Shown: positions 8,012 to 27,667 of the stretch, piece by piece
Numbering within the stretch: the stretch's first letter is position 1
How the letters are laid out: every line of letters begins with the position of its first letter
Assembly: GCA_005887685.1 (NCBI GenBank)
Contig: VBHJ01000024.1
Span: 1-35,429 of the forward strand
Origin: Chloroflexota bacterium
GTDB lineage: Bacteria; Chloroflexota; Dormibacteria; Dormibacterales; Dormibacteraceae
Reading direction: 5' to 3'
DNA: 35,429 nt
Translations under genes and position numbers: made by a program
The notes under the pieces: generated by a model
What the model saw: only the letters and a program-made list of their open reading frames with translations
Told to the model about the DNA's origin: nothing
Database searches by the model: none

Positions 8012-8485
8012 CTGAGCAAAGAATCCGCCGGGCTGCTGCTCTATCGGTCTGTCCAGGGCGAGCTGGAGGTCCTGCTCGTTCACCCAGGCGGCCCGTTCTG
8101 GAAGCGCCGCGACGATGGCGCGTGGTCGATCCCGAAGGGCGAGATCGAAGCGGGCGAGACACGCGAGAACGTGGCGCGGCGCGAGTTCGCGGAGGAGCTT
8201 GGCCAACCGCCGCCCGGCGGTGACCTGACTCCACTCGGTTCCGTGCGGCAGGCCGGCGGCAAGGTCGTGCATATATGGGCGGGCCGCGGCGACCTCGACG
8301 TCTCACGGGTGAAGAGCGCCTCGTTCGCGATGGAGTGGCCTCCGAAGTCAGGCCGGATGCAGGATTTTCCGGAGGTGGACCAGGCGGCCTGGTTCGCCCT
8401 CGCCGAGGCACGGCGGAAGATACTGCCTGCGCAGAGCGCATTCCTCGACCGCCTGGAAGCCGTGCTCTCGGCCGAGGAATCGTGA
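8012..8485 (+). CDS. NUDIX hydrolase with probable CTG start
   Basis: A 157-residue NUDIX protein. The box at about residues 49-71 is complete: G-E-I-E-A-G-E, seven residues later REFAEELG, i.e. GX5EX7REXXEEXG with hydrophobic positions filled. The protein begins LSKESAGLLLYR and continues with VLLVHPGGPFW and AWSIPKGE, matching NUDIX proteins acting on dinucleoside polyphosphates or similar nucleotides, where the first residue before S/P-K-x-SAGLL is the initiator Met. In this frame the preceding stop is TGA 7985-7987 and there is no ATG, GTG or TTG before residue 54, which is inside the NUDIX box; CTG 8012 aligns with the expected Met. AGGAG sits 14 bases upstream, rather far. A GTG at 8171 would destroy the domain. 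A sequencing error at the start codon is the alternative. Confidence 0.8.
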   Translation: MSKESAGLLLYRSVQGELEVLLVHPGGPFWKRRDDGAWSIPKGEIEAGETRENVARREFAEELGQPPPGGDLTPLGSVRQAGGKVVHIWAGRGDLDVSRVKSASFAMEWPPKSGRMQDFPEVDQAAWFALAEARRKILPAQSAFLDRLEAVLSAEES

Positions 8486-8509
8486 GGGCGGCCGCGCCCG
8501 GCCGCCCTC
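8484..8509 (+). terminator. Terminator hairpin after NUDIX gene
   Basis: GAGGGCGGCCG (8484-8494) and CGGCCGCCCTC (8499-8509) form a perfect 11-bp stem with a 4-base loop, starting inside the NUDIX stop codon and followed by GCGTTGTGTCT. The T content after it is modest. It lies between convergent genes and could stop either transcript. Confidence 0.65.
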
Positions 8510-16521: not shown

Positions 16522-17214
16522 CTAAGCGACCGCGCGGTAGCCGAGGCCACGCACGGTGACGATGTAGCGCGGCGTGCCGACCTCTTCACCGAGCTTTTCG
16601 CGCAGCCTTCCGATGTGCACGTCGACCGTTCGCTCGAGCGCGTCGCCCTGCGACGGCCCATAGAGCGAGTCGAGCAGGGCCTGTCGCGTGAGCACGCGGC
16701 CATGCGCCTGCACGAGCGCGACCAGCAGGCGGAACTCGGCGGGTGTCAGGGGCACCGCCTTGCCCGCGCGCCGCACCTCGATCCGGTCGAGGTCGATCAC
16801 GAGGTCACCCTGCTCGAGGACCCCATGCCCTTTCGCCGACCCGTTGAGCTCTTTGCCTCGTCGCAGCACCGCCTTGACGCGGACCACCAGCTCGGCGGGC
16901 GAGAACGGCTTGGCCAGGTAATCGTCGGCACCCTCGTGGATGCCGTACACGCGGTCCGCGACCTGGGCTCGGGCGGACAGCATGACGATGGGCACGCTCG
17001 AGCGCTCGCGAAGGATCCGCATCAGCGCGAGCCCGTCGAGCTCGGGCAGCATGATGTCCAGGACGATCAGGCGAGGATGAAATTCACTGAAGGCCTCGAG
17101 CGCCGACTGTCCGTTCGCGGCCGTGATGACGCGAAAGCCCTCACGCTCGAGATAGGTCTTGACGAGAGACACGATTTTGGGGTCATCGTCGACGACGAGG
17201 ATCGGCGCCGTCAT
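16522..17214 (-). CDS. OmpR/PhoB-family response regulator
   Basis: A 230-residue regulator: receiver domain with D9-D10-D11 acidic cluster, phosphoacceptor D53 (LIVLDIMLPE), Ser (VMLSA) and Lys (YLAKPF), then a winged-helix DNA-binding domain (LTPAEFRLLVALVQAHGRVLTRQALLDSLYG ... VDVHIGRLREKLGE ... YIVTVRGLGYRAVA). It forms a two-gene unit with the histidine kinase at 15450. ATG 17226 is four codons further upstream, but a -35/-10 pair (TTGACG, 16-base gap, TACGAT) has its -10 overlapping that ATG, so transcription would begin downstream of it and ATG 17214 would be read from a very short leader. A perfect dyad covers the -35 and could mediate autoregulation. Confidence 0.9.
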   Translation of the reverse strand: MTAPILVVDDDPKIVSLVKTYLEREGFRVITAANGQSALEAFSEFHPRLIVLDIMLPELDGLALMRILRERSSVPIVMLSARAQVADRVYGIHEGADDYLAKPFSPAELVVRVKAVLRRGKELNGSAKGHGVLEQGDLVIDLDRIEVRRAGKAVPLTPAEFRLLVALVQAHGRVLTRQALLDSLYGPSQGDALERTVDVHIGRLREKLGEEVGTPRYIVTVRGLGYRAVA

Positions 17215-17224
17215 GTCGAGACCC

Positions 17225-17261
17225 ATCGTAGAGGCGAAATCTAGACCGTCAATGTGACGGT
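17225..17261 (-). promoter_or_regulatory. Promoter of the two-component pair with overlapping dyad
   Basis: On the minus strand, TTGACG (17247-17252) and TACGAT (17225-17230) are 16 bases apart. The perfect dyad ACCGTCA-ATG-TGACGGT (17245-17261) overlaps the -35, a placement expected of a repressor or autoregulatory site. Confidence 0.55.
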
Positions 17262-18171: not shown

Positions 18172-19860
18172 ATGCGGCCAACCTTGGCCGAAAACTGGGC
18201 ACTTAACGACGTTCCGGCGCCGATCGTGGTTTACGACGGCGAGGGACGCGCCGTCCAGGCCAACGACCAGGCCTACTCCCTGCTCGGGCTGACCCCTGGC
18301 GCCCTCCTCGGAGCCAGCCCCGAGGAGTCGGGTTGGCTGGTCGTGGAATCGGTCGAGGGGCCCATCACCGTCCACCCGGTGGTCGCCGCGTTGAGGTCGG
18401 GGCAACGCGTGCGCGGCGTGCTGGTCCGCGCGCGGCGGCCGGGCGGCGCCGACGTGTGGCTGCTGGTCGATGCGATACCGCAGCCAGGCGGCGACCGGGT
18501 CGTGGCGACCCTGACCGACGTCACGCATCTCATCGCCTACAGCAGGGTGTCCAGCCGCTCGGCCGGGGACCACATAGTGGACGAGGTCACCGACCGGCTC
18601 GCCCAGGCCCGGATGGAGCCTCGGGCCATCCTGACCACGGTCACCAGGGCGCTGAGCAAGCTCAGGCCTGGCATCTGGGTCGCGTCGCTGATGGGCAAGG
18701 ATCCTTCCGACATGCAGATCGTCGCCACCAACGACGACGATGACGAGAAGGATTACGCCGCGAGCTACGTGGAATCGATGAGGCTGGCGGGAGCCCTGGA
18801 GACGACGCCTATCTCGTCTCGCGTCATCGAATCGGGACAGCCATTGCTGATTCCCGACATCACCGTCGGAGACCTGATGGGCTTCCTGAACGACACCGTG
18901 CGCGCCTACCTGGCGATCCATCCGTGGCAGTCGCCGGAGATCCATCTCGGCGTGGTCGTCGTCCCGATGCGGGCTCGAGGCGCCACCATCGGCACGCTCG
19001 GCCTGTTCGAACGGCGGAACTCGAATCCCCTGACGGACAAAGACACCCTCTGGATGCAGTCGATCGCCGATCGAACGGGCCTCGCCGTGGAGAACGCGCA
19101 GCTTTACTCGGACGCGGTCAACCGCCTCGAGCGGCTGGCGGCGCTGCAGAGCGTGAGCCTGGCGATCAGCGCGAGCCCCGACCTGAGGCTGACGCTCAAG
19201 GTGATCCTCGACCACGTCACGTCCCAGCTCAAGGTGGATGCGGCGGACGTGCTGCTGCTGGATGAGAGCGACAACACGCTCACGCTGTCCGCCAGCACCG
19301 GCTTCCTGGCGACAGCCGTGCCCGACTACCGGCTGCCGGCCGACGATGGCGTCCCCGGCCGTTCCGTGATCGGCCGGAGGATCGAGACCGTGACCGCGAT
19401 GAGCGCTTTCTCCCAGTTCCGCCGGCGCTCGCTCTTCGCGCGGGAGGGGTTCAAGGCCTATGGCGCGGTGCCGCTGATCAGCCGCGGCAAGCTGCTCGGC
19501 GCGCTCGAGGTGTTCCACCGCTCGCCCCTGACCCCGGACCAGGAGTGGCTCTCCTTCCTCGACGCCCTCGGGAGCGTCGCCGCCGTGGCGATCGACAGCG
19601 CGACCATGCAAGAACGGCTCCGCCACAGCCGGTGGCCCGCCCAGGCCCAAAAGCCCACGCGGATCTCGCCGGAGATGAGCCGCATGGAGACCGAGATCAT
19701 GCGGCTGGCGGCGGAGGGAATGACCAACCGGGAAATCGCGGCCAGGGTGCACCTGAGCCAGAACACGGTCAAGTTCCATATGCGCCAGATTTTCCAGAAG
19801 ACCGGCGCCGCCAACCGAACCGAGCTGGCGCACGAGGCGGCGAAGCAAGGCTGGCTTTAA
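18172..19860 (+). CDS. PAS-GAF-GAF-LuxR transcriptional regulator
   Basis: A 562-residue cytosolic sensor-regulator. PAS: about residues 10-125 (DVPAPIVVYDGEGRAVQANDQAYSLLG). First GAF: about 145-310, ending GVVVVPMRARGATIGTLGLF and TGLAVENAQLYSDA. Second GAF: about 325-480 (LQSVSLAISASPDLRLTLKVILDHV ... GYGAVPLISRGKLLGALEVF type core). The last 58 residues are a NarL/LuxR helix-turn-helix (EIMRLAAEGMTNREIAARVHLSQNTVKFHMRQIFQKTG). There is no receiver domain, so the ligand or redox state sensed by PAS/GAF is the likely input. ATG 18172 has only a weak purine-rich GGCGAG upstream. It lies directly upstream of the signalling operon, and a perfect palindrome 19 bases after its stop is a plausible target for it. 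Confidence 0.85.
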   Translation: MRPTLAENWALNDVPAPIVVYDGEGRAVQANDQAYSLLGLTPGALLGASPEESGWLVVESVEGPITVHPVVAALRSGQRVRGVLVRARRPGGADVWLLVDAIPQPGGDRVVATLTDVTHLIAYSRVSSRSAGDHIVDEVTDRLAQARMEPRAILTTVTRALSKLRPGIWVASLMGKDPSDMQIVATNDDDDEKDYAASYVESMRLAGALETTPISSRVIESGQPLLIPDITVGDLMGFLNDTVRAYLAIHPWQSPEIHLGVVVVPMRARGATIGTLGLFERRNSNPLTDKDTLWMQSIADRTGLAVENAQLYSDAVNRLERLAALQSVSLAISASPDLRLTLKVILDHVTSQLKVDAADVLLLDESDNTLTLSASTGFLATAVPDYRLPADDGVPGRSVIGRRIETVTAMSAFSQFRRRSLFAREGFKAYGAVPLISRGKLLGALEVFHRSPLTPDQEWLSFLDALGSVAAVAIDSATMQERLRHSRWPAQAQKPTRISPEMSRMETEIMRLAAEGMTNREIAARVHLSQNTVKFHMRQIFQKTGAANRTELAHEAAKQGWL

Positions 19861-19878
19861 TCAGGTTGGGTTAACAGA

Positions 19879-19896
19879 ACTACCCACATGGGTAGT
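19879..19896. promoter_or_regulatory. Perfect 18-bp dyad ahead of the signalling operon
   Basis: ACTACCCA-CA-TGGGTAGT, arms 8 bp and spacer 2 bp. It lies in the 112-base gap between the LuxR-type regulator gene and the operon beginning with the 53-aa protein. Symmetric sites of this length suit dimeric LuxR/NarL helix-turn-helix proteins. Confidence 0.5.
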
Positions 19897-19972
19897 GAAT
19901 TGGCCCTTCGGAGAGTGAACCGCTAAGCAATGGCTTCTTACGCTCACACCCAAGGGAGCGTGGTTGCTTTAC

Positions 19973-20134
19973 ATGGACGTGGTCACCACCTGGGTAAGGA
20001 CCGCCGATACCGGGGAGGCTGATGGCTGGTCCGGCCGTCAGTTCCTGGTCCTCGGCGTGCTGGCGCTGGCGCTTGCCCTGATGGCGGTGCCCCCGGTCGT
20101 GGCCACCCTCGCGCTGCTTGGCTTGATCTCGTGA
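19973..20134 (+). CDS. 53-residue membrane protein coupled to the Ser/Thr kinase gene
   Basis: An open frame of 53 codons: a polar N-terminus (MDVVTTWVRTADTGEADGW), then QFLVLGVLALALALMA, a PP turn and VVATLALLGLIS, giving one long or two short membrane segments. Its TGA (20132-20134) overlaps the kinase GTG (20131) as GTGA, the coupling used throughout this operon, which argues that it is translated. AAGGGAG at 19952-19958 is 14 bases before the ATG but 5 bases before an in-frame TTG at 19964, so translation may begin at the TTG. I know no family. It could recruit the otherwise soluble kinase to the membrane, or simply act as a leader peptide; both are inference. Confidence 0.55.
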   Translation: MDVVTTWVRTADTGEADGWSGRQFLVLGVLALALALMAVPPVVATLALLGLIS

Positions 20135-21975
20135 GCACGCCCGAAGGCATGACGCTGGGCCCGTACAGGGTCATGGAGCGGATCGGCCGCGGCGGGATGG
20201 CAAGCGTGTACCGCGCCTATCACCCGGCCCTCGACCGCTACGTGGCGATCAAGATCCTCCCCGATTTCTTCGCCGACGAGCCGGAGTACCGCGAGCGCTT
20301 CCAGCAGGAAGCCAGGTCGGTCGCCCGGCTGAAGCACCCGAACATCCTCGAGATCTTCGACTTCGGCTACGAGGGTGGTCTCGCCTACCTGGTCCTGGAG
20401 CTCGTCGAGGGCGGCACGCTCGCGGACCACGTCGGCAAACCGATGGACCTGCACGAGGTCGTCCGGCTGATCGAGCAGCTGGCGGCCGCGCTCGACCACG
20501 CGCATGCGAACGGCATCCTTCACCGCGACATCAAGCCGTCCAACATCCTGATCCACAAGGACGGGACGCCCGTGCTCGGCGACTTCGGTCTCGCCAAGAT
20601 GGCCGGATCTCTGCGGCGGTTGACCGGCTCCGGCACCGTGATGGGGACGCCTGAGTACATGTCCCCGGAGCAGGCAGCCGATGAGCCGCTCACCGCGGCA
20701 TCAGACGTCTATTCGCTCGCCATCGTGGCCTACGAGATGCTGACCGGGCGCGTGCCCTTCGAGGCCGACACGCCGGCCGCAACCCTGCTGTCGCATGTGA
20801 CCAAACCGATGCCGGCGACGCGTGAGCTGAGGGGCGAGCTCTCCGCCCACGTGGAAGACGTCTTGCGCAAGGCGCTCGCCAAGAGCCCGCAGGATCGCTA
20901 TCAGACCGCCGCGGCTTTCGCCGCCGCGCTCAAACCGGCCGCCTGGCCGAACCGCCGCGGCGACGACCTGTCCGGGCTCGTCGCGCCAACACGACGCGTC
21001 AGCCGGCCCGACCGCATCCCGGTCGTGCTGGTGGTGGATGACGGACCGGCGAATCGCGAGCTCATCGAAGCCTGCCTTGCCGACGTGGATTGCCAGGTCC
21101 GGACCGCTGAGGACGGGGCGGCCGCATTGAAAGCGATCCAGGCCTGGCATCCTGACCTGGTCCTGCTCGACGTGCAGATGCCAGGCATGGACGGTTACGA
21201 GGTCTGTCGCAGGATCAAGGCGACTCCCGGATCGAGGCTGCTGCCTGTCGTGATGATCACCTCCCTCGACGACACGAGCGACCGAATCCACGCCCTGGAA
21301 GCAGGCGCCGACGATTACATGACCAAGCCCGTGGACCGCGTCGAGCTGGTGGCGCGCGTGCGGTCGGCGCTTCGCTTGAAAGGCGTGTACGACTCCCTGG
21401 ACAGCGCGGAGCACGTGATCTTCGCCCTGGCGGCCGCGGTCGAGGCCAAGGATCCATACACCGAAGCGCACACCCAGCGGGTCGCGGAGTCGGCGCGGCG
21501 GATCGGCGCGGGCCTCGGCCTTTCGGCTCCTGACCAGGACGCGCTCTACCGCGGCGGGCTCATCCACGACATCGGCAAGATCGGCATCCCCGATGCGATC
21601 CTGCTCAAGCCCGGTCCGCTCGACGCCCGCGAGCTCGCGACGATGCGCCTTCATCCCACCATCGGCGAGAACATCGTCGCCCCGCTGCGCTCGGCCGCGG
21701 CGCTGCTGCCGATCATCCGTCACCACCATGAGCACTACGACGGCAATGGTTATCCTGACCGCCTCGCGGGCACCGGCATACCGCGACTGGCCCGGATCAT
21801 CGCCGTCTGCGACGCGTTCGACGCGCTGGTGAACGACCGTCCGTATCGCGCTCGCAAGACAGCGGAGGAAGCGCTCGCCACCCTGCGAGCAGGGGCCAGG
21901 CGGCAGTGGGACCCGGAGGTCATCGACGTCTTCGTCAGCGACTTCGGCGCGGTAAGCAGAATGGGCGCGGCCTGA
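20131..21975 (+). CDS. Ser/Thr protein kinase - receiver - HD-GYP fusion
   Basis: A 614-residue soluble three-domain protein. Kinase (about 12-265): G-R-G-G-M-A-S-V-Y, catalytic K41, HRDIKPSN at H131-R132-D133, DFGLAK at D151, GTPEYMSPEQ; a complete Hanks-type kinase. Receiver (about 295-415): VVDD, phosphoacceptor D347 in LLDVQMPGMDG, MITS, MTKP. HD-GYP phosphodiesterase (about 430-600): metal pair H479-D480 in IHDIGKIGIP, HHEHYDGNGYP with G540-Y541-P542, and the D-A-F-D-A-L end. All active-site motifs are intact, so it could phosphorylate Ser/Thr, accept phosphate from a histidine kinase and cut cyclic-di-GMP. There is no PASTA or membrane segment. Start GTG 20131 overlaps the 53-aa protein stop. 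The next gene begins 9 bases downstream with AGGTGAG before it. Confidence 0.92.
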   Translation: MSTPEGMTLGPYRVMERIGRGGMASVYRAYHPALDRYVAIKILPDFFADEPEYRERFQQEARSVARLKHPNILEIFDFGYEGGLAYLVLELVEGGTLADHVGKPMDLHEVVRLIEQLAAALDHAHANGILHRDIKPSNILIHKDGTPVLGDFGLAKMAGSLRRLTGSGTVMGTPEYMSPEQAADEPLTAASDVYSLAIVAYEMLTGRVPFEADTPAATLLSHVTKPMPATRELRGELSAHVEDVLRKALAKSPQDRYQTAAAFAAALKPAAWPNRRGDDLSGLVAPTRRVSRPDRIPVVLVVDDGPANRELIEACLADVDCQVRTAEDGAAALKAIQAWHPDLVLLDVQMPGMDGYEVCRRIKATPGSRLLPVVMITSLDDTSDRIHALEAGADDYMTKPVDRVELVARVRSALRLKGVYDSLDSAEHVIFALAAAVEAKDPYTEAHTQRVAESARRIGAGLGLSAPDQDALYRGGLIHDIGKIGIPDAILLKPGPLDARELATMRLHPTIGENIVAPLRSAAALLPIIRHHHEHYDGNGYPDRLAGTGIPRLARIIAVCDAFDALVNDRPYRARKTAEEALATLRAGARRQWDPEVIDVFVSDFGAVSRMGAA

Positions 21976-21984
21976 GGTGAGCCG

Positions 21985-24039
21985 GTGAAGGAGCTGGTTC
22001 CCTACCTGCAGGACGCGACCGCCATCGCGTTCGTCGTCCTCGGCGTGGTCACGGCGATCACCTGGCTGCGCCGGCGCGACCGTTCGATGGCGTTCCTGGC
22101 CCTGGCCATCATCCTGCTCTCCGCGGTCTCAGGCCTGGGTCGGCTGCAGGCACACCTCTGGTTCATGCTGCCGCTCCTGGGCTCGATCGAGCTGCTCGCG
22201 TTCATGGGCACCGCCTACGCCCTGCTCCTGTATCGAAACGCACTCATCCCCCTCCCCCGGCGCTGGCACGCCGCCGCTGTCGTTTCGTTGGTGGCTGCCA
22301 GCGTCCTTTTGTTTGGCGCGGTGGCGCTCTCGGCCAGCCGCGGCGTGCTCACCGTCATCGCGGTCCTGTTCGTCCTCGTGTGGTCGGCGTGCGTGGGCGA
22401 GCCGGCGCTCAGGTTCTGGCGCGTCGCGCGAAATCTACCCGCGGTGCAGGCCTGGCGCCTGCGGTCGCTGAGCCTGGGCTTCGGAGGCATCGTGGTCATC
22501 CTGCTGTTCGCCGTGTCGATCGGATTGCTGGTCAGGCAACCCGTGATCCAGGTCCTGGTCGAGCTGGTGGTGCTCGCCATCATCCCCCTCCTCTACGCCA
22601 GCTTCTCGCCGCCCGCCTGGCTGCGCCGCCAGTGGCGCGCGGCGGAAGAAGAAGGCCTGCGTGGGTTCATGGAGGATCTCCTGGTCAGCGAAGACCGCGA
22701 CGCCCTGGCCAATCGTGCGGTGGAGTGGGCGATGCGGCTTGTCGGTGGCGCCTCGGCGGTGCTGTTCGACGCTTCCGGCAAACCCACCGCCAGCCTCGGT
22801 CTCGATGCCGCGCAGGTGGCTGCGACTGCGGTTGAAGTGGCTGACCTTGGTGAGGGCGTCAGCCGGCTGAGGCTTGACGGTGTCGAATCCAACGTGCTGT
22901 CGGTGCCGGTCAAGGGATTGACGGCGTCGGCCAACCTCGTCGTCCTTTCCGGACCCTTCAGCCCGGCGTTCGGAGGCGAGGAGGCGACCCGCATGCAGCA
23001 GCTGATGAGCGTTTTCGTCACCGCGCTCGATCGCCGCCACCTCATCCAGGAGCTCGAGGAGAGCAATACGGCGCTCATCGAGGCGAACCAGCACAAGAGC
23101 GTCTTCCTCGCCAACATGAGCCACGAGCTGCGCACCCCCCTCAACTCGATCATCGGCTTCTCCGAGCTGTTGACCGATGCGCGCGAGGGGCAGTTCGACG
23201 ACGCGACTCGCAGACGCTTCGTCGGCCAGATCATGACGAGCGGCAAGCACCTGCTTGGTTTGATCAATGACATCCTCGACCTTTCCAAAGTCGAGGCGGG
23301 CCAGATGGAGCTGCGGCTCAACATGATGTCGGTCGCGGAGTCGGTCGATCAGGTGACCAAGACGGTCGAACCCCTTCTGGCCAAGAAGAACATCAAGGTC
23401 ACAACCAGCGTCGCCGGCGCAGGCGACATACTGGCCGACGCCGGCAAGGTGAAGCAGATGCTGCTCAACCTGGTCTCGAACGCGATCAAGTTCACACCTG
23501 ATGGGGGCACCGTCACGATCAGCGCGCTGCGTATCAAGGACACGATCGAAATCTCGGTTGCGGACACTGGGATCGGGATCGCCGAGGAAGACCAGAAGTC
23601 GATCTTCCAGGAGTTCCATCAGCTCGATCAGGGTCCCGGCCGCAAGCACGAAGGCACCGGGCTTGGCCTCGCGTTGACCAGACGGTTCGCGCGACTGCAC
23701 GGCGGCGATGTGCGCGTCACGAGCCGTGTCAACAAAGGCAGCGTGTTCACGCTGAGCCTGCCCATTCGTGGAGCCGCGGCGCCCGCCGCTGAACCTGTTC
23801 CCACCTTCGCGAAGAACGGACACGGCTCCGGGCCACTGATCCTTGTGGTGGAGGACGACCCCGCCGCGGCGGAGCTCCTCACTCGCCAGCTCGTCGCCGC
23901 CGGCTACCGCACCGAGGTGGCCCGTACGGGAAGGGAGGCATTGGCCCGGGCGCGGCAGCTGCAGCCCGCCGCGATCACCCTCGACATCATCCTGCCTGAG
24001 GTCGACGGCTGGGGAGCGGAATACCGATTGTCGTGGTGA
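21985..24039 (+). CDS. Membrane hybrid histidine kinase with truncated receiver
   Basis: A 684-residue kinase starting at GTG 21985 (AGGTGAG upstream). Residues about 5-205 hold six or seven membrane helices, followed by a GAF-like segment (about 215-345), a coiled linker, HisKA with H380 in NMSHELRTPLNSIIGF, and a full HATPase (LLNLVSNAIKFTPDGG, VADTGIGIAEEDQ, GTGLGLALTRRF). A receiver begins at about 613 (LILVVEDDPAAAELL) and reaches its phosphoacceptor D667 (ITLDIILPEVDGW), then runs into GAEYRLSW and TGA. The missing part, from IPIVVVSVVDN onward, continues in another frame just downstream, so the receiver has been split by an out-of-frame deletion of roughly 34 bases. The kinase should still autophosphorylate; the receiver cannot fold as a whole. 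Confidence 0.88.
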   Translation: MKELVPYLQDATAIAFVVLGVVTAITWLRRRDRSMAFLALAIILLSAVSGLGRLQAHLWFMLPLLGSIELLAFMGTAYALLLYRNALIPLPRRWHAAAVVSLVAASVLLFGAVALSASRGVLTVIAVLFVLVWSACVGEPALRFWRVARNLPAVQAWRLRSLSLGFGGIVVILLFAVSIGLLVRQPVIQVLVELVVLAIIPLLYASFSPPAWLRRQWRAAEEEGLRGFMEDLLVSEDRDALANRAVEWAMRLVGGASAVLFDASGKPTASLGLDAAQVAATAVEVADLGEGVSRLRLDGVESNVLSVPVKGLTASANLVVLSGPFSPAFGGEEATRMQQLMSVFVTALDRRHLIQELEESNTALIEANQHKSVFLANMSHELRTPLNSIIGFSELLTDAREGQFDDATRRRFVGQIMTSGKHLLGLINDILDLSKVEAGQMELRLNMMSVAESVDQVTKTVEPLLAKKNIKVTTSVAGAGDILADAGKVKQMLLNLVSNAIKFTPDGGTVTISALRIKDTIEISVADTGIGIAEEDQKSIFQEFHQLDQGPGRKHEGTGLGLALTRRFARLHGGDVRVTSRVNKGSVFTLSLPIRGAAAPAAEPVPTFAKNGHGSGPLILVVEDDPAAAELLTRQLVAAGYRTEVARTGREALARARQLQPAAITLDIILPEVDGWGAEYRLSW

Positions 24040-24551
24040 GCGTGGTGGACAACCCTGAGCTCGGGCTCGCGCTGGGCGCGATGGACTACCTCGTCAAACC
24101 GATAGAAGCCGACGACCTGATCCAGAGGCTCAACCGCTTCAACCTGAGACGCTCCTCGTCCGACAACGCTCTTCGAGTGCTGGTGGTGGATGACGACGAC
24201 GCGTACCGGACGCTGCTCACCAAAACGCTCGAGCCGGCCGGCTTCACTGTCGTCCCCGCCTCGGGGGGCCGCGAGGCAATCGAGCTGGCGAAGTCGATGA
24301 AGCCGGACCTCGTGCTTCTCGACCTGATGATGCCCGAGGTCACGGGTTTCGACGTCGTTGAAGCTCTGCACGCCGATGAGTCCACGCGCGACACGCCGAT
24401 CATGGTCATCACAGCAGCCAACCTGTCCGACGCGGACAAACGCCTTCTCAATGGAAGGGTCTCGAAGATTCTGAGCCGCGGCTCGGTTGCCACCACCGAC
24501 GTCGTCGGCATGCTCAAGAAGGTCGTTGCTCATCGCAACGGCATGACATGA
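24033..24551 (+). CDS. Remainder of split receiver plus a complete receiver domain
   Basis: A 172-residue product from GTG 24033 (or 24036), overlapping the preceding TGA as GTGA. The first 33 residues (SVVDNPELGLALGAMDYLVKPIEADDL) are clearly the end of the receiver begun in the kinase gene, including its conserved K22-P23. After a linker, a full receiver follows: LRVLVVDDDD, phosphoacceptor D97 in LVLLDLMMPE, MVITAA and a variant end (RVSKILSRGSV) where the usual K-P is replaced by K-I. Originally this was probably one kinase with two tandem receivers. The current reading frame is open and in the right place for coupled translation, so a separate double-duty receiver protein may be made. 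A sequencing or assembly error is the alternative. Confidence 0.75.
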   Translation: MVSVVDNPELGLALGAMDYLVKPIEADDLIQRLNRFNLRRSSSDNALRVLVVDDDDAYRTLLTKTLEPAGFTVVPASGGREAIELAKSMKPDLVLLDLMMPEVTGFDVVEALHADESTRDTPIMVITAANLSDADKRLLNGRVSKILSRGSVATTDVVGMLKKVVAHRNGMT

Positions 24552-24952
24552 AAGACAAGGGGCTGATCCTTGTCGTCGAAGACAACGAGGCGAACCAGAT
24601 GCTTGTCCGGGCCGTGCTCGAGCTGGAGGGTTATCGCGTGGAGCTGGCAGGCTCCGCGTTAGAGGCGGCCCAACAGCTTCGAGATTCTCCGCCTGACCTC
24701 ATCCTGATGGACGTCCAGCTTCCGGGCGAAGACGGGCTTTCGCTGACCCGCCGGCTAAAGGCCGACCCGGCGACCACCGCCATCCCGATCGTCGCTCTCA
24801 CCGCCCACGCGATGACGGGCGATAGGGAGCTGGCGTTGAACGCCGGCTGCGCGGGCTACATCTCGAAGCCGATCGACACTCGAACCTTTGGCCTCCAGGT
24901 CACCCAGTACCTCGTCGACAACCAGAGCAATGGCCGTTTGGTGGCCTTGTGA
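24548..24952 (+). CDS. Single-domain response regulator
   Basis: A 134-residue stand-alone receiver: acidic pair E11-D12 (VVEDNEAN), phosphoacceptor D55 (LILMDVQLPGEDG), Thr in VALTAHAM and Lys in YISKPID, all intact. The VVEDNEANQML and LTAHAM motifs are those of receivers that accept phosphate from hybrid kinases, like DivK. No output domain, so it is likely a phosphate shuttle or acts by protein binding. ATG 24548 overlaps the preceding TGA as ATGA; its own end overlaps the next gene start by 4 bases. Confidence 0.88.
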   Translation: MKDKGLILVVEDNEANQMLVRAVLELEGYRVELAGSALEAAQQLRDSPPDLILMDVQLPGEDGLSLTRRLKADPATTAIPIVALTAHAMTGDRELALNAGCAGYISKPIDTRTFGLQVTQYLVDNQSNGRLVAL

Positions 24953-25323
24953 GTGGGCTTGCTCGAATTCTCGTCGCCGACGACGACCCAGCGAGCGCCG
25001 AGCTCCTCAAATATTTCCTGGAGTCCAACGGGTTCACGGTGGAGGTCGCGCCCGACGGCAACCGCGCGCTGGAAATGGGCACGAGCGGCGACTTTCAGCT
25101 GGTGATCCTGGACATGCACATGCCCATGTACGACGGCGTCGAGGTCCTCGAGTTCCTCCGCAAACGCCACGTCTTGCACCCGATCAAGACCATCGCGGTC
25201 ACCGGCGATGTTTCCGACGAAGTCAGGGGTGACCTCGAAGCCGGCGGGGTCGACAGCTTCCTGACCAAGCCGGTCGACCTCCAGCTACTTCGGGATGAAG
25301 TCAATCGTTTGATGGCCGGCTGA
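24949..25323 (+). CDS. Single-domain response regulator
   Basis: A 124-residue receiver with D11-D12-D13 (VADDDPASAELL), phosphoacceptor D55 (LVILDMHMPMYDG), Thr in AVTGDVS and Lys in FLTKPVD, all present. No output domain. GTG 24949 overlaps the previous TGA by 4 bases (GTGA). It is the third receiver in a row in this operon and only loosely similar to its neighbour, so it may have another kinase partner. Confidence 0.88.
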   Translation: MSGLARILVADDDPASAELLKYFLESNGFTVEVAPDGNRALEMGTSGDFQLVILDMHMPMYDGVEVLEFLRKRHVLHPIKTIAVTGDVSDEVRGDLEAGGVDSFLTKPVDLQLLRDEVNRLMAG

Positions 25324-25331
25324 GAGCCGTC

Positions 25332-25565
25332 GTGATCGCCATCACCCCGGATGCGGTCGCCAAACCGGCCGTCGGGGTGACGCCCTGGATCCTGCTCGTC
25401 GTTTCCGACGAGCGTCAGCGGCGCATCGCGCGAAGCGCCTGGGAAGAAGCCGGATTCGCGGTCGAGGTCGCGGCGAGCGCCCTGGACGCGCTCGAATGCC
25501 TCAAGGTGATGACCCCGTCCCTCGTCGTCGTCGACGACTGGCTGTACAGGCCGGCCCCACGCTGA
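25332..25565 (+). CDS. Half-length receiver-like protein
   Basis: A 77-residue protein. After 17 polar residues it matches the first half of a receiver: strand WILLVVSDERQ, helix RRIARSAWEEAG, strand AVEVAA, helix LDALECLKVM and strand SLVVVDDW with D68 in the phosphoacceptor position. It then ends with LYRPAPR and TGA; the last two strands, the Thr and the Lys are missing. It begins at GTG 25332, 8 bases after the previous gene, and its TGA shares one base with the next ATG (TGATG). The acidic pair is D26-E27 rather than the usual D-D. Truncated by decay or kept as a docking module; no remaining half was found downstream, where the next kinase starts at once. Confidence 0.6.
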   Translation: MIAITPDAVAKPAVGVTPWILLVVSDERQRRIARSAWEEAGFAVEVAASALDALECLKVMTPSLVVVDDWLYRPAPR

Positions 25566-27667
25566 TGCGGCGCTTCATGCTGGTCGCGTCTGCCGCGGCC
25601 ATCGCGCTGGCGGCGATCACGTTCGTCCTCGCAGTCGCCACGCCACCCGGCGGGCAAGGTGCGCTGAACGCGATTCGTGACGGGGGCCAGGCGGTGCTCG
25701 CCTTCGCCGCTCTGGCGAGCTGCGGACTGGCGTCCAGGCGCTCGATCGGCCGCACGCGTTGGGCCTGGGGATTGCTTGCCGCGTCAGCAGGCACCGCACT
25801 CGCGGGCGAGATAGGCGCGGCGCTTGACACCCTGCTCCAGGGCCCAGCGCCGGTTCCGTCGATCGCGGACCTGGGGTTCATCGGGGCGGTGCCGTTTGCG
25901 GTCGCCGGGTTGCTCGCCTTCCCCGCGGCTGCGAATCAATTCGCCACCCGCCGCCGCGCCGCGCTCGACCTGGCCATGGTCGCCCTCTCCCTGACCTTTG
26001 TCAGCGCGGCCCTGTCGCTGCCCCAGGCGTACCTGAATCCGGGATCACCCCTCTCTTCGTGGGTGAGCGCGGCATTTCCGCTGTCGGACATCGCGATCAT
26101 CGCGGTGATCTTCGTCAGCGTTCGCCGCAGCCTGGCGACCCAGGGCGGGCGCCTGGTGCTCGTGGTGTGCGGCCTTGCGATCATCGCCATCTCGGACAGC
26201 GCAGTCGCTTTCCTGTCCGCGACGGGCGACCTGCCCGGGCTCAGCTACCTGCTTGGAGCAGGTTCCATCTACGGATATGCGCTGATCGCGCTGGGACCGT
26301 TCTGGCCAGAGCGCCGGAAGGAAGAGCGGCCGGACGAGATGGCGCTGTGGCAGGACCTCATCCCCTATGTCGGCGTCACCGCGGTGGCCCTGACGGCCCT
26401 GACCCTGTGGCTCGGCCATCGGCACATCGACGCCGTCGCCGTGATCCCGGGCGCCAGCCTTCTCGTTGTGCTGCTGGCCAGCCAGCTGGTCTCGCACGCC
26501 GAGGCGCGTGCCCTGCTGCAGCAGAGCAGGCTCGCCGAGGCCCGCATCAGGGAGCGTGAGACGATGCTCAACAACGTGATCGACCACGCCCCGCAGGGGG
26601 TGGCTTCGATTGCAGTCGACAGGCGGATCATGAACGCCAACCCACGCCTGGCTTCGATGCTATATGCGCCGCTCCAGGTACTCCTCGGGGCCAGTACCGA
26701 CGGCTTTCTCCCGCCCGACTATGTAGCGCGCGTGTTCAAGTCTTTCGGGCCCTCCGGCGACGGCTCGGCGGAGACGTATGAATCCGACTGCCAGGTGAGA
26801 AGAGCCGATGGGAGCCAGTTCTGGGTCCACTGGAGCGCCAACCCGATCCGCAAGGGGGACGGTTGCATCGATTACTTCCTCGCCACTTTCGAGGACGTCA
26901 CCGCCAAGCGCGAGGCGGACGAGACGGCGGTGGCCAACCTCGCGCAGCTCGAGAAGCTCAACCGGCTCAAGAGCGAGTTCGTCTCGATGGTCAGCCACGA
27001 GTTCCGCACCGCGCTGGTCGGGATCCAGGGTTTCAGCGAGCTCATGCGGGAGCAGGAGATGGGCACCGTGGAGATCCAGGCGCTCGCCGGTGAGGTCTAC
27101 AACGAGGCCCAGCGACTGAACCGGATGATCACCGAGATGCTCGACTTCGACCGGCTGGAGGCCGGCAAGCTCCGGCTCGACCTGAAGCCGCTCGACATCA
27201 ACCAGCTGGTCCGCGAGACTGTCGGCCGAGCGGCCGTATCCAGCCCGAAGCATGTGATCAAGGCCGAGCTTCAGCTCGCGCTGCCCGCGGCGTTCGGGGA
27301 TTCCGATCGTCTCACCCAGGTGCTCACGAATCTCCTGAGCAACGCGGTCAAGTACTCACCGAAAGGTGGAGAGATCTGCGTGCGGACGCGTTTGAACGGC
27401 GGCTCCGTCGAAGTTGCGGTCAGCGATCACGGTTCCGGCATTCCGGCCGAGTTCATCAGCCGGCTGTTCGGCCGCTACGAGCGATACGAGGACAAGCACG
27501 CGGGCAAGATCATCGGCACGGGGCTTGGCCTCGCGATCACACGTCAGATCGTCGAGATGCACGGGGGCAGGATCTCGGTCGACAGCGTCGTCGGCAGCGG
27601 GTCGGAGTTCAGGTTCACCGTGCCGCTGGCGACCACCGTCGCGGCTGCGGTCACCAGGTCCGCGTGA
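25565..27667 (+). CDS. Membrane PAS sensor histidine kinase
   Basis: A 700-residue kinase. About eight or nine membrane helices cover residues 5-310, similar to integral-membrane sensor modules of unknown ligand. A PAS domain follows (about 335-455: NNVIDHAPQGVASIAVDRRIMNANPRLA; PAC end DYFLATFEDVTAKREADE), then HisKA with H478 in SMVSHEFRTALVGIQGFSEL and HATPase (LTNLLSNAVKYSPKGG, VSDHGSGIPAEF, GTGLGLAITRQIV). The H-box has Ala where Pro is usual. No receiver is attached, so the single receivers upstream are likely partners. The longer open frame begins at 25496, but ATG 25565 joins the previous stop as TGATG and precedes the first helix. It converges with the SIS gene, with 17 bases of coding overlap. 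Confidence 0.9.
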   Translation: MRRFMLVASAAAIALAAITFVLAVATPPGGQGALNAIRDGGQAVLAFAALASCGLASRRSIGRTRWAWGLLAASAGTALAGEIGAALDTLLQGPAPVPSIADLGFIGAVPFAVAGLLAFPAAANQFATRRRAALDLAMVALSLTFVSAALSLPQAYLNPGSPLSSWVSAAFPLSDIAIIAVIFVSVRRSLATQGGRLVLVVCGLAIIAISDSAVAFLSATGDLPGLSYLLGAGSIYGYALIALGPFWPERRKEERPDEMALWQDLIPYVGVTAVALTALTLWLGHRHIDAVAVIPGASLLVVLLASQLVSHAEARALLQQSRLAEARIRERETMLNNVIDHAPQGVASIAVDRRIMNANPRLASMLYAPLQVLLGASTDGFLPPDYVARVFKSFGPSGDGSAETYESDCQVRRADGSQFWVHWSANPIRKGDGCIDYFLATFEDVTAKREADETAVANLAQLEKLNRLKSEFVSMVSHEFRTALVGIQGFSELMREQEMGTVEIQALAGEVYNEAQRLNRMITEMLDFDRLEAGKLRLDLKPLDINQLVRETVGRAAVSSPKHVIKAELQLALPAAFGDSDRLTQVLTNLLSNAVKYSPKGGEICVRTRLNGGSVEVAVSDHGSGIPAEFISRLFGRYERYEDKHAGKIIGTGLGLAITRQIVEMHGGRISVDSVVGSGSEFRFTVPLATTVAAAVTRSA

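Follow-up and report, generated by a model that had tools for sequence, protein, structure and literature searches.

A conserved palindrome behind a PAS-GAF-GAF-LuxR gene as a probable operator for control of the neighbouring signalling operon

An 18-bp palindrome at positions 19879-19896 of the window (i.e., the whole stretch of 35,429 nucleotides analysed here) is best explained as the main operator of the PAS-GAF-GAF-LuxR protein encoded directly upstream, whose most likely role is to activate the promoter of the signalling operon that follows; on the basis of sequence comparison, we assign to this reading a probability of about 0.7. The palindrome would probably serve as the docking site through which the regulator controls its neighbours. 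Four kinds of observation carry the argument, namely the sequence of the site, its conservation, its spacing relative to further elements and its linkage to the regulator gene.

The palindrome, ACTACCCACATGGGTAGT, hereafter dyad 1 (ACTACCCA-CA-TGGGTAGT; 19879-19896, no strand; core TACCC-N4-GGGTA), has perfect arms of 8 bp around a centre of 2 nt. It lies 18 bases past the luxR stop codon (19858-19860), in the gap of 112 bases that extends to the ATG at 19973; direct reading of the sequence confirms the exact palindrome with uninterrupted 8-bp arms reported in the preliminary description. Perfect arms of 8 or more, with a centre of 0, 2 or 4 nt, arise in 9 of 3000 (0.3%) first-order Markov shuffles of this gap, and eight such palindromes occur in the whole window, compared to a simulated mean of 4.0 (10 simulations); it is thus the location, not the existence, of the palindrome that is unusual, and symmetry alone is unconvincing. 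Another palindrome, GAGGGCGGCCG-CGCC-CGGCCGCCCTC with perfect 11-bp arms, is found at 8484-8509. With up to three mismatches allowed, the 18-mer occurs nowhere else, either in the window or in the 3.05-Mb assembly (264 contigs), the sole other match being the identical place on the opposite strand; the genome-wide search proposed earlier for this 18-mer yields therefore no second copy, but the dyad is conserved upstream of orthologous operons (see below).

The regulator (562 aa; 18172-19860, + strand), the proposed DNA-binding partner, contains, according to Pfam, a PAS_4 domain, GAF domain in two stretches and, at residues 502-556, a C-terminal GerE helix-turn-helix (HTH) domain (PF00196, E 3.2e-16), which places it among the LuxR/NarL (GerE) transcription factors. 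In a structure comparison whose query was the 73-aa HTH stretch only, this part resembles by sequence SdiA, GerE, VraR, NarL, DevR and EL222 (E 1.2e-9 to 7.9e-6), the sensor domains of which are unlike those of the present protein. The presumed operon begins with a 53-aa ORF (19973-20134, + strand), read from the sequence and aligned in congeners over its C-terminal part, for which translation might instead begin at the in-frame TTG at 19964; its place is kept in the aligned congeners, its C-terminus is hydrophobic as judged by eye, and a GTGA overlap joins it to the start of the kinase gene. The latter, the proposed regulated gene, encodes a Ser/Thr kinase-receiver-HD protein (20131-21975, + strand; Pfam Pkinase, Response_reg and HD_5), followed by two histidine kinases and three receiver proteins (21985-27667, + strand; Pfam), which, judging from their spacing, appear to belong to one operon.

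In a protein search of 101 genomes (the own genome and 100 relatives), close luxR orthologs (61-100% identity) were found in 16 of the 17 genomes of the genus; 15 of the 16 genomes other than our own hold an ortholog at 61-93% identity, and one (G016) a relative at 52% only. The best homologs of the kinase/HD protein adjoin the luxR ortholog in 15 other genomes of the genus, that of G016 being located elsewhere. The dyad is present directly behind the luxR ortholog in all 16 gaps, where CTACCC begins 13-32 bases past the first base of the stop codon. Exact TACCC-N4-GGGTA is kept in 14 of these gaps, extended to CTACCC-N4-GGGTAG in 12 and to TTACCC-N4-GGGTAG in 2; of the altered loci, L009 reads CTATCC-N4-GGATAG, both arms having changed together, and L010 reads CTACCC-N4-GAGTAG, with a single arm altered. 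The two central bases of the dyad vary freely among orthologs. The congeners share ancestry, so that 16 of 16 is not equivalent to 16 independent tests. The outcome that, in the preliminary description, would speak against its proposal, namely no other copies and no conservation upstream of orthologous operons, is not what is seen, the dyad being kept throughout and altered in two loci.

The loci are highly conserved from some 10 bases 5' of the dyad through a -10-like element (see below), beyond which conservation falls sharply. Upstream, the flank GGRTTAAC (19868-19875, + strand; 16-locus alignment), which ends 3 nt before the dyad's AACTACCC, is altered in L009 and L010 and has T as its first base in L008. 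A block CGCTAAGCAATNNCTTCTTA at 19922-19940, between dyad 2 and the -10-like element, is strongly conserved in congeners and is accounted for by neither operator nor promoter; a similar TAAGCACT(C/T)GCTT lies 5' of the dyads in L018 and L019.

A second, weaker dyad (dyad 2, YCC-TWCG-GRG; 19901-19916, no strand), the proposed promoter-proximal site, is centred 20-21 bp downstream of dyad 1. At least five of the six bases of its CCC/GGG core are present in 12 of the 16 home-genus species, and four of six, with symmetric arms, in L017; dyad 2 is imperfect in the home genus and falls under the threshold of our script in L005, L006 and L011 (3 of 16). Tandem dyads at 21-22 bp recur in the genera g2, g6 and g7 and in one paralog group: g2 has three dyads spaced 20-22 bp (the third of L020 can be placed at two neighbouring positions), and g6, g7 and the paralog group of G002, G001 and G010 have two dyads 22 bp apart. 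TTGACC-GTTA-GGTCAA is found in L023 (g9), with a degenerate copy 22 bp further on, recognized by eye; GCC-GTTA-GGTC was likewise read by eye, below the script threshold, in L024 and L025 (g3), and in the G011 paralog (L064), one strong dyad stands without a partner at 21-22 bp. A core score averaged over seven groups, for which the reference dyads of loci outside the genus had been selected by hand, is highest at +22 and +21; at 2.88, its maximum lies above every one of 500 flank shuffles (largest value 2.39).

The -10-like hexamer TACGCT (19939-19944, + strand) is centred 54 bp from the centre of dyad 1; TANNNT occurs at this distance in 15 of 16 congeners and at 55 bp in the remaining one, the background in loci outside the genus being about 0.008 per base. 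In the three g2 loci, the distance from TANNNT to the last dyad is 33-34 bp, and a dyad also lies 54-55 bp from it; in g7, the hexamer lies 54 bp from the main dyad, with three more TANNNT elsewhere, and in g6, 57 bp from the second dyad. It is absent from the expected place in L059, L064, L065 and L077; in L059, L065 and L077, inspection by eye showed only an ATAACT, some 34 bp away from the second dyad. A possible weak -35 element, GTGAAC (19915-19920, + strand; 18-nt spacer), was recognized by eye only, and a sigma-70 consensus scan of 19800-20140 returned no promoter, a result which fits an activator-dependent promoter but leaves the promoter assignment uncertain. The promoter may be of the class II activator-dependent kind, in which an activator is centred near -42 beside a poor -35; the observations that bear on this are the constant distance of the -10-like hexamer within the genus and the lack of a consensus promoter in that scan. 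From the hexamer at 19939-19944, transcription would be estimated to start near 19951, placing the dyads near -63 and -42, an arrangement which makes activation of the signalling operon promoter the most likely outcome. Of the further inverted repeat to which the preliminary description drew attention, ACGCTC (19940-19945) and GAGCGT (19956-19961) do exist, separated by 10 nt; a role as operator is not supported, the repeat being kept, as judged by eye on the alignment, only in L002-L004 (3 of 16 species) and overlapping the conserved TACGCT.

The distribution of the motif among genomes points to the same regulator. CTACCC-N4-GGGTAG is found at 15 places in 14 of 42 genomes of the family: 12 are orthologous gaps, one lies behind a luxR paralog (G011:C122) and two are not at luxR; these last were rejected as luxR operators, since one (G016:C194) is near the start of an unrelated ORF and the other (G021:C55) sits between two non-luxR genes. 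For the shorter TACCC-N4-GGGTA, the 17 genomes of the genus yield 24 places, 17 of them at the orthologous luxR locus or at that of a paralog (14 orthologous gaps, two places behind luxR paralogs in G011 and G002, and one at G010:C352). Among the seven others, four are within long ORFs (G003, G008, G014 and G016), one falls within a tRNA-Ser gene (G000), another is where a LuxR-like ORF begins (G002:C171) and one is in G015, 25 bases behind a Crp-type regulator gene. This last site (L083 1682-1695; G015:C108) is an exact TACCC-N4-GGGTA within GATTAACTACCC-GGAC-GGGTAATCGTTAA; in the luxR gap of G015 itself, dyad 1 is good but one-sided. The strict motif is concentrated at the PAS-GAF-GAF-LuxR regulator; it is not enriched genome-wide, since the reversed control gives 39 places, compared to 24, in the same 17 genomes. 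In our own assembly, the two TACCC-N4-GGGTA places are the palindrome and one inside the tRNA-Ser gene on C171, so that a genome-wide regulon is not seen there with the strict motif, with room left for weaker sites. As for autoregulation through a dyad upstream of luxR, a scan of up to 350 bases upstream of the luxR open frame and 200 bases into it gave, over 16 home-genus loci, a sole match of at least 8/10, in L017, and the idea was set aside.

Whether the dyad follows the regulator or the operon can be judged from the loci in which the two are separated. Behind the luxR paralogs of G011, G002 and G001, what comes after the dyad (changed on one side in G001) is a histidine kinase and not the kinase/HD protein; and upstream of eight out of eight kinase/HD homologs with no detected luxR neighbour, hand-picked from a list of well over 100 matches, no TACCC-N4-GGGTA match above 7/10 was found within up to 400 bases (234 for L102 and 91 for L120). 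L102 and L118 also span the kinase part, the other six being homologous over the receiver-HD part. Because paralogs keep their dyads before a different gene, and because kinase/HD homologs with no detected luxR lack a good match, the dyad more probably belongs to the LuxR protein than to the operon. It is conserved at the orthologous place and tracks the regulator gene, the exception being 7 of 34 aligned regulators (L022, L057, L058 and L060-L063) with no clear dyad behind the gene, two of which (L060 and L061) face convergent genes. The earlier suggestion of a candidate operator for the PAS-GAF-GAF-LuxR protein gains support, by inference, from the presence of the dyad in 16 of 16 close-ortholog gaps (two of them altered), in other genera and behind paralogs.

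Two loci deserve separate mention. A second GAF-LuxR paralog (40% identity; L060 5436-6764, i.e., G000:C263:49438-50727, minus strand) is found on the same contig at a distance of about 30 kb, where it runs towards a convergent small ORF and a convergent adenine deaminase gene and has no dyad behind it; a 9/10 match 0.9-1.0 kb behind this paralog is inside the adenine deaminase gene and was dismissed. In G010:C352 (L077 2402-2500), a dyad pair and kinase gene 96% identical to those of G002 are present and the luxR paralog is gone, homology to G002 beginning at the last codons of luxR; the missing gene may reflect loss, rearrangement or mis-assembly.

Other explanations have to be weighed against the same observations. 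The dyads might be the operator of the LuxR protein and yet serve to repress the operon, with RNA polymerase blocked at -35 through dyad 2 and DNA bending. The linkage evidence is shared by activation and repression, and dyad 2 (19901-19916) touches the possible -35 element; however, the sites lie upstream of the -10 element and of the estimated start and not over them, no consensus promoter was found, as expected of an activator-dependent one, and tandem sites of which the last is near -42 are reminiscent of an activator promoter such as ogt, all of which makes repression unlikely. A somewhat fainter prospect is that a different transcription factor uses the dyad as its operator, the site being kept at this place by happenstance. 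Further regulators are indeed encoded nearby, including an OmpR-type receiver protein (16522-17226), and both the G015 site behind a Crp-type gene and L120, a kinase/HD homolog with no detected luxR that has two CCC-N4-GGG cores, might be quoted in its favour. The cores of L120 have poor flanks and are 31 bp apart, on a contig that ends after 91 bases, too soon to exclude luxR; against another factor are the dyads behind luxR paralogs with a different downstream gene and the eight homologs described above, all without a match above 7/10.

It is very improbable that the dyad acts at the RNA level, folded within the luxR transcript into a hairpin with a 4-nt loop (stem ACUACCC-ACAU-GGGUAGU), either as terminator or as stability element. 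A CCC-N4-GGG sequence suits such a stem equally well and the gap folds, with an outer stem, at z = -1.99 (6 of 200 shuffles fold as well as it does); yet there is no terminator call and no T-run, so that the GC stem followed by a T-run typical of intrinsic terminators is not found, 19700-20200 has no Rfam match up to E = 1, and the dyad spacing of 21-22 bp and the fixed distance to the -10-like element suit dimers on DNA. The outer stem in question (GGGUUAA/UUGGCCC, enclosing the dyad hairpin when 19868-19906 is read as RNA) is kept in some species only, one pair being broken in 7 of 16 species and another in 4 of 16; with neither an Rfam match nor a conserved outer stem, the RNA element was set aside.

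If the palindrome is, as preferred here, the main operator of the adjacent regulator, a dimer of C-terminal GerE-type domains would read TACCC-N4-GGGTA, one TACCC/GGGTA half-site per subunit, and the weaker dyad, which lies some two helical turns further downstream and on the same side of the helix, would be bound by a second dimer; once a signal had brought the PAS/GAF part into its active state, the regulator would activate, rather than repress, the promoter of the operon encoding the 53-aa protein, the kinase-receiver-HD protein, the histidine kinases and the receivers, with transcription presumably starting at the place estimated above. As for the recognition helix, the residue preceding TVKFH/TIKFH is N in all regulators whose dyads are of the ACCC type; L021, with GCCC and AGCC dyads, has H in its place, and L023-L025 have S (GACC type in L023, that of L024 and L025 being read by eye); N is also found in the seven regulators with no clear dyad, and the N/S/H pattern, resting on two lineages, involves too few of them for a code. 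It is tempting, and rather speculative, to regard these loci as plug-in modules, in which each duplicated GAF-LuxR protein carries behind its gene its own spaced dyad array, controlling whatever signalling operon follows, the helix residue N, S or H setting the half-site ACCC, GACC or GCCC, so that each regulator would diverge in step with its operator and cross-talk would be avoided.

A likely binding site, a target and a promoter layout are thereby proposed, from sequence alone, for a family of regulators in a poorly studied bacterial group, and would place a kinase/HD-domain signalling operon under the control of a PAS/GAF sensor; the regulator-operator pairs, whose small differences are coordinated, lend themselves to tests in vitro. 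Among the papers listed from the open-licence part of PMC, none was found on this palindrome as an operator or on LuxR operators in Dormibacterota. Among known systems, the GerE, DevR, VraR and LuxR-box operators are two-fold symmetric sites for a GerE-domain dimer, the lux box being centred near -42; the palindrome seems to differ from them in half-site sequence and spacing. Its half-site is presumably TACYYM-like, as in the NarL consensus, and its arms (CCC-N4-GGG) are two bases closer than those of the NarL 7-2-7 operator, which are separated by N6; TACCC-N4-GGGTA is therefore not a 7-2-7 site. The nearest likeness, comprising a GerE-type HTH, an inverted repeat and tandem sites, is offered by the E. 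coli ogt promoter, at which NarL alone is sufficient and activates from tandem sites at -44.5 and -77.5, one of them abutting -35, each operator consisting of 7-base inverted elements with 2 bp between them (PMC7419079). The dyads of the PAS-GAF-GAF-LuxR protein are 21-22 bp apart, compared to 33 for NarL at ogt; moreover, NarL is a receiver protein acting at many promoters, whereas the regulator described here has a PAS-GAF-GAF architecture and one target carrying the strict motif. Judging by this analogy, the site probably works like a NarL-type activator site, though not a 7-2-7 one; the kind of operator is familiar, following a textbook principle, and the instance is new.
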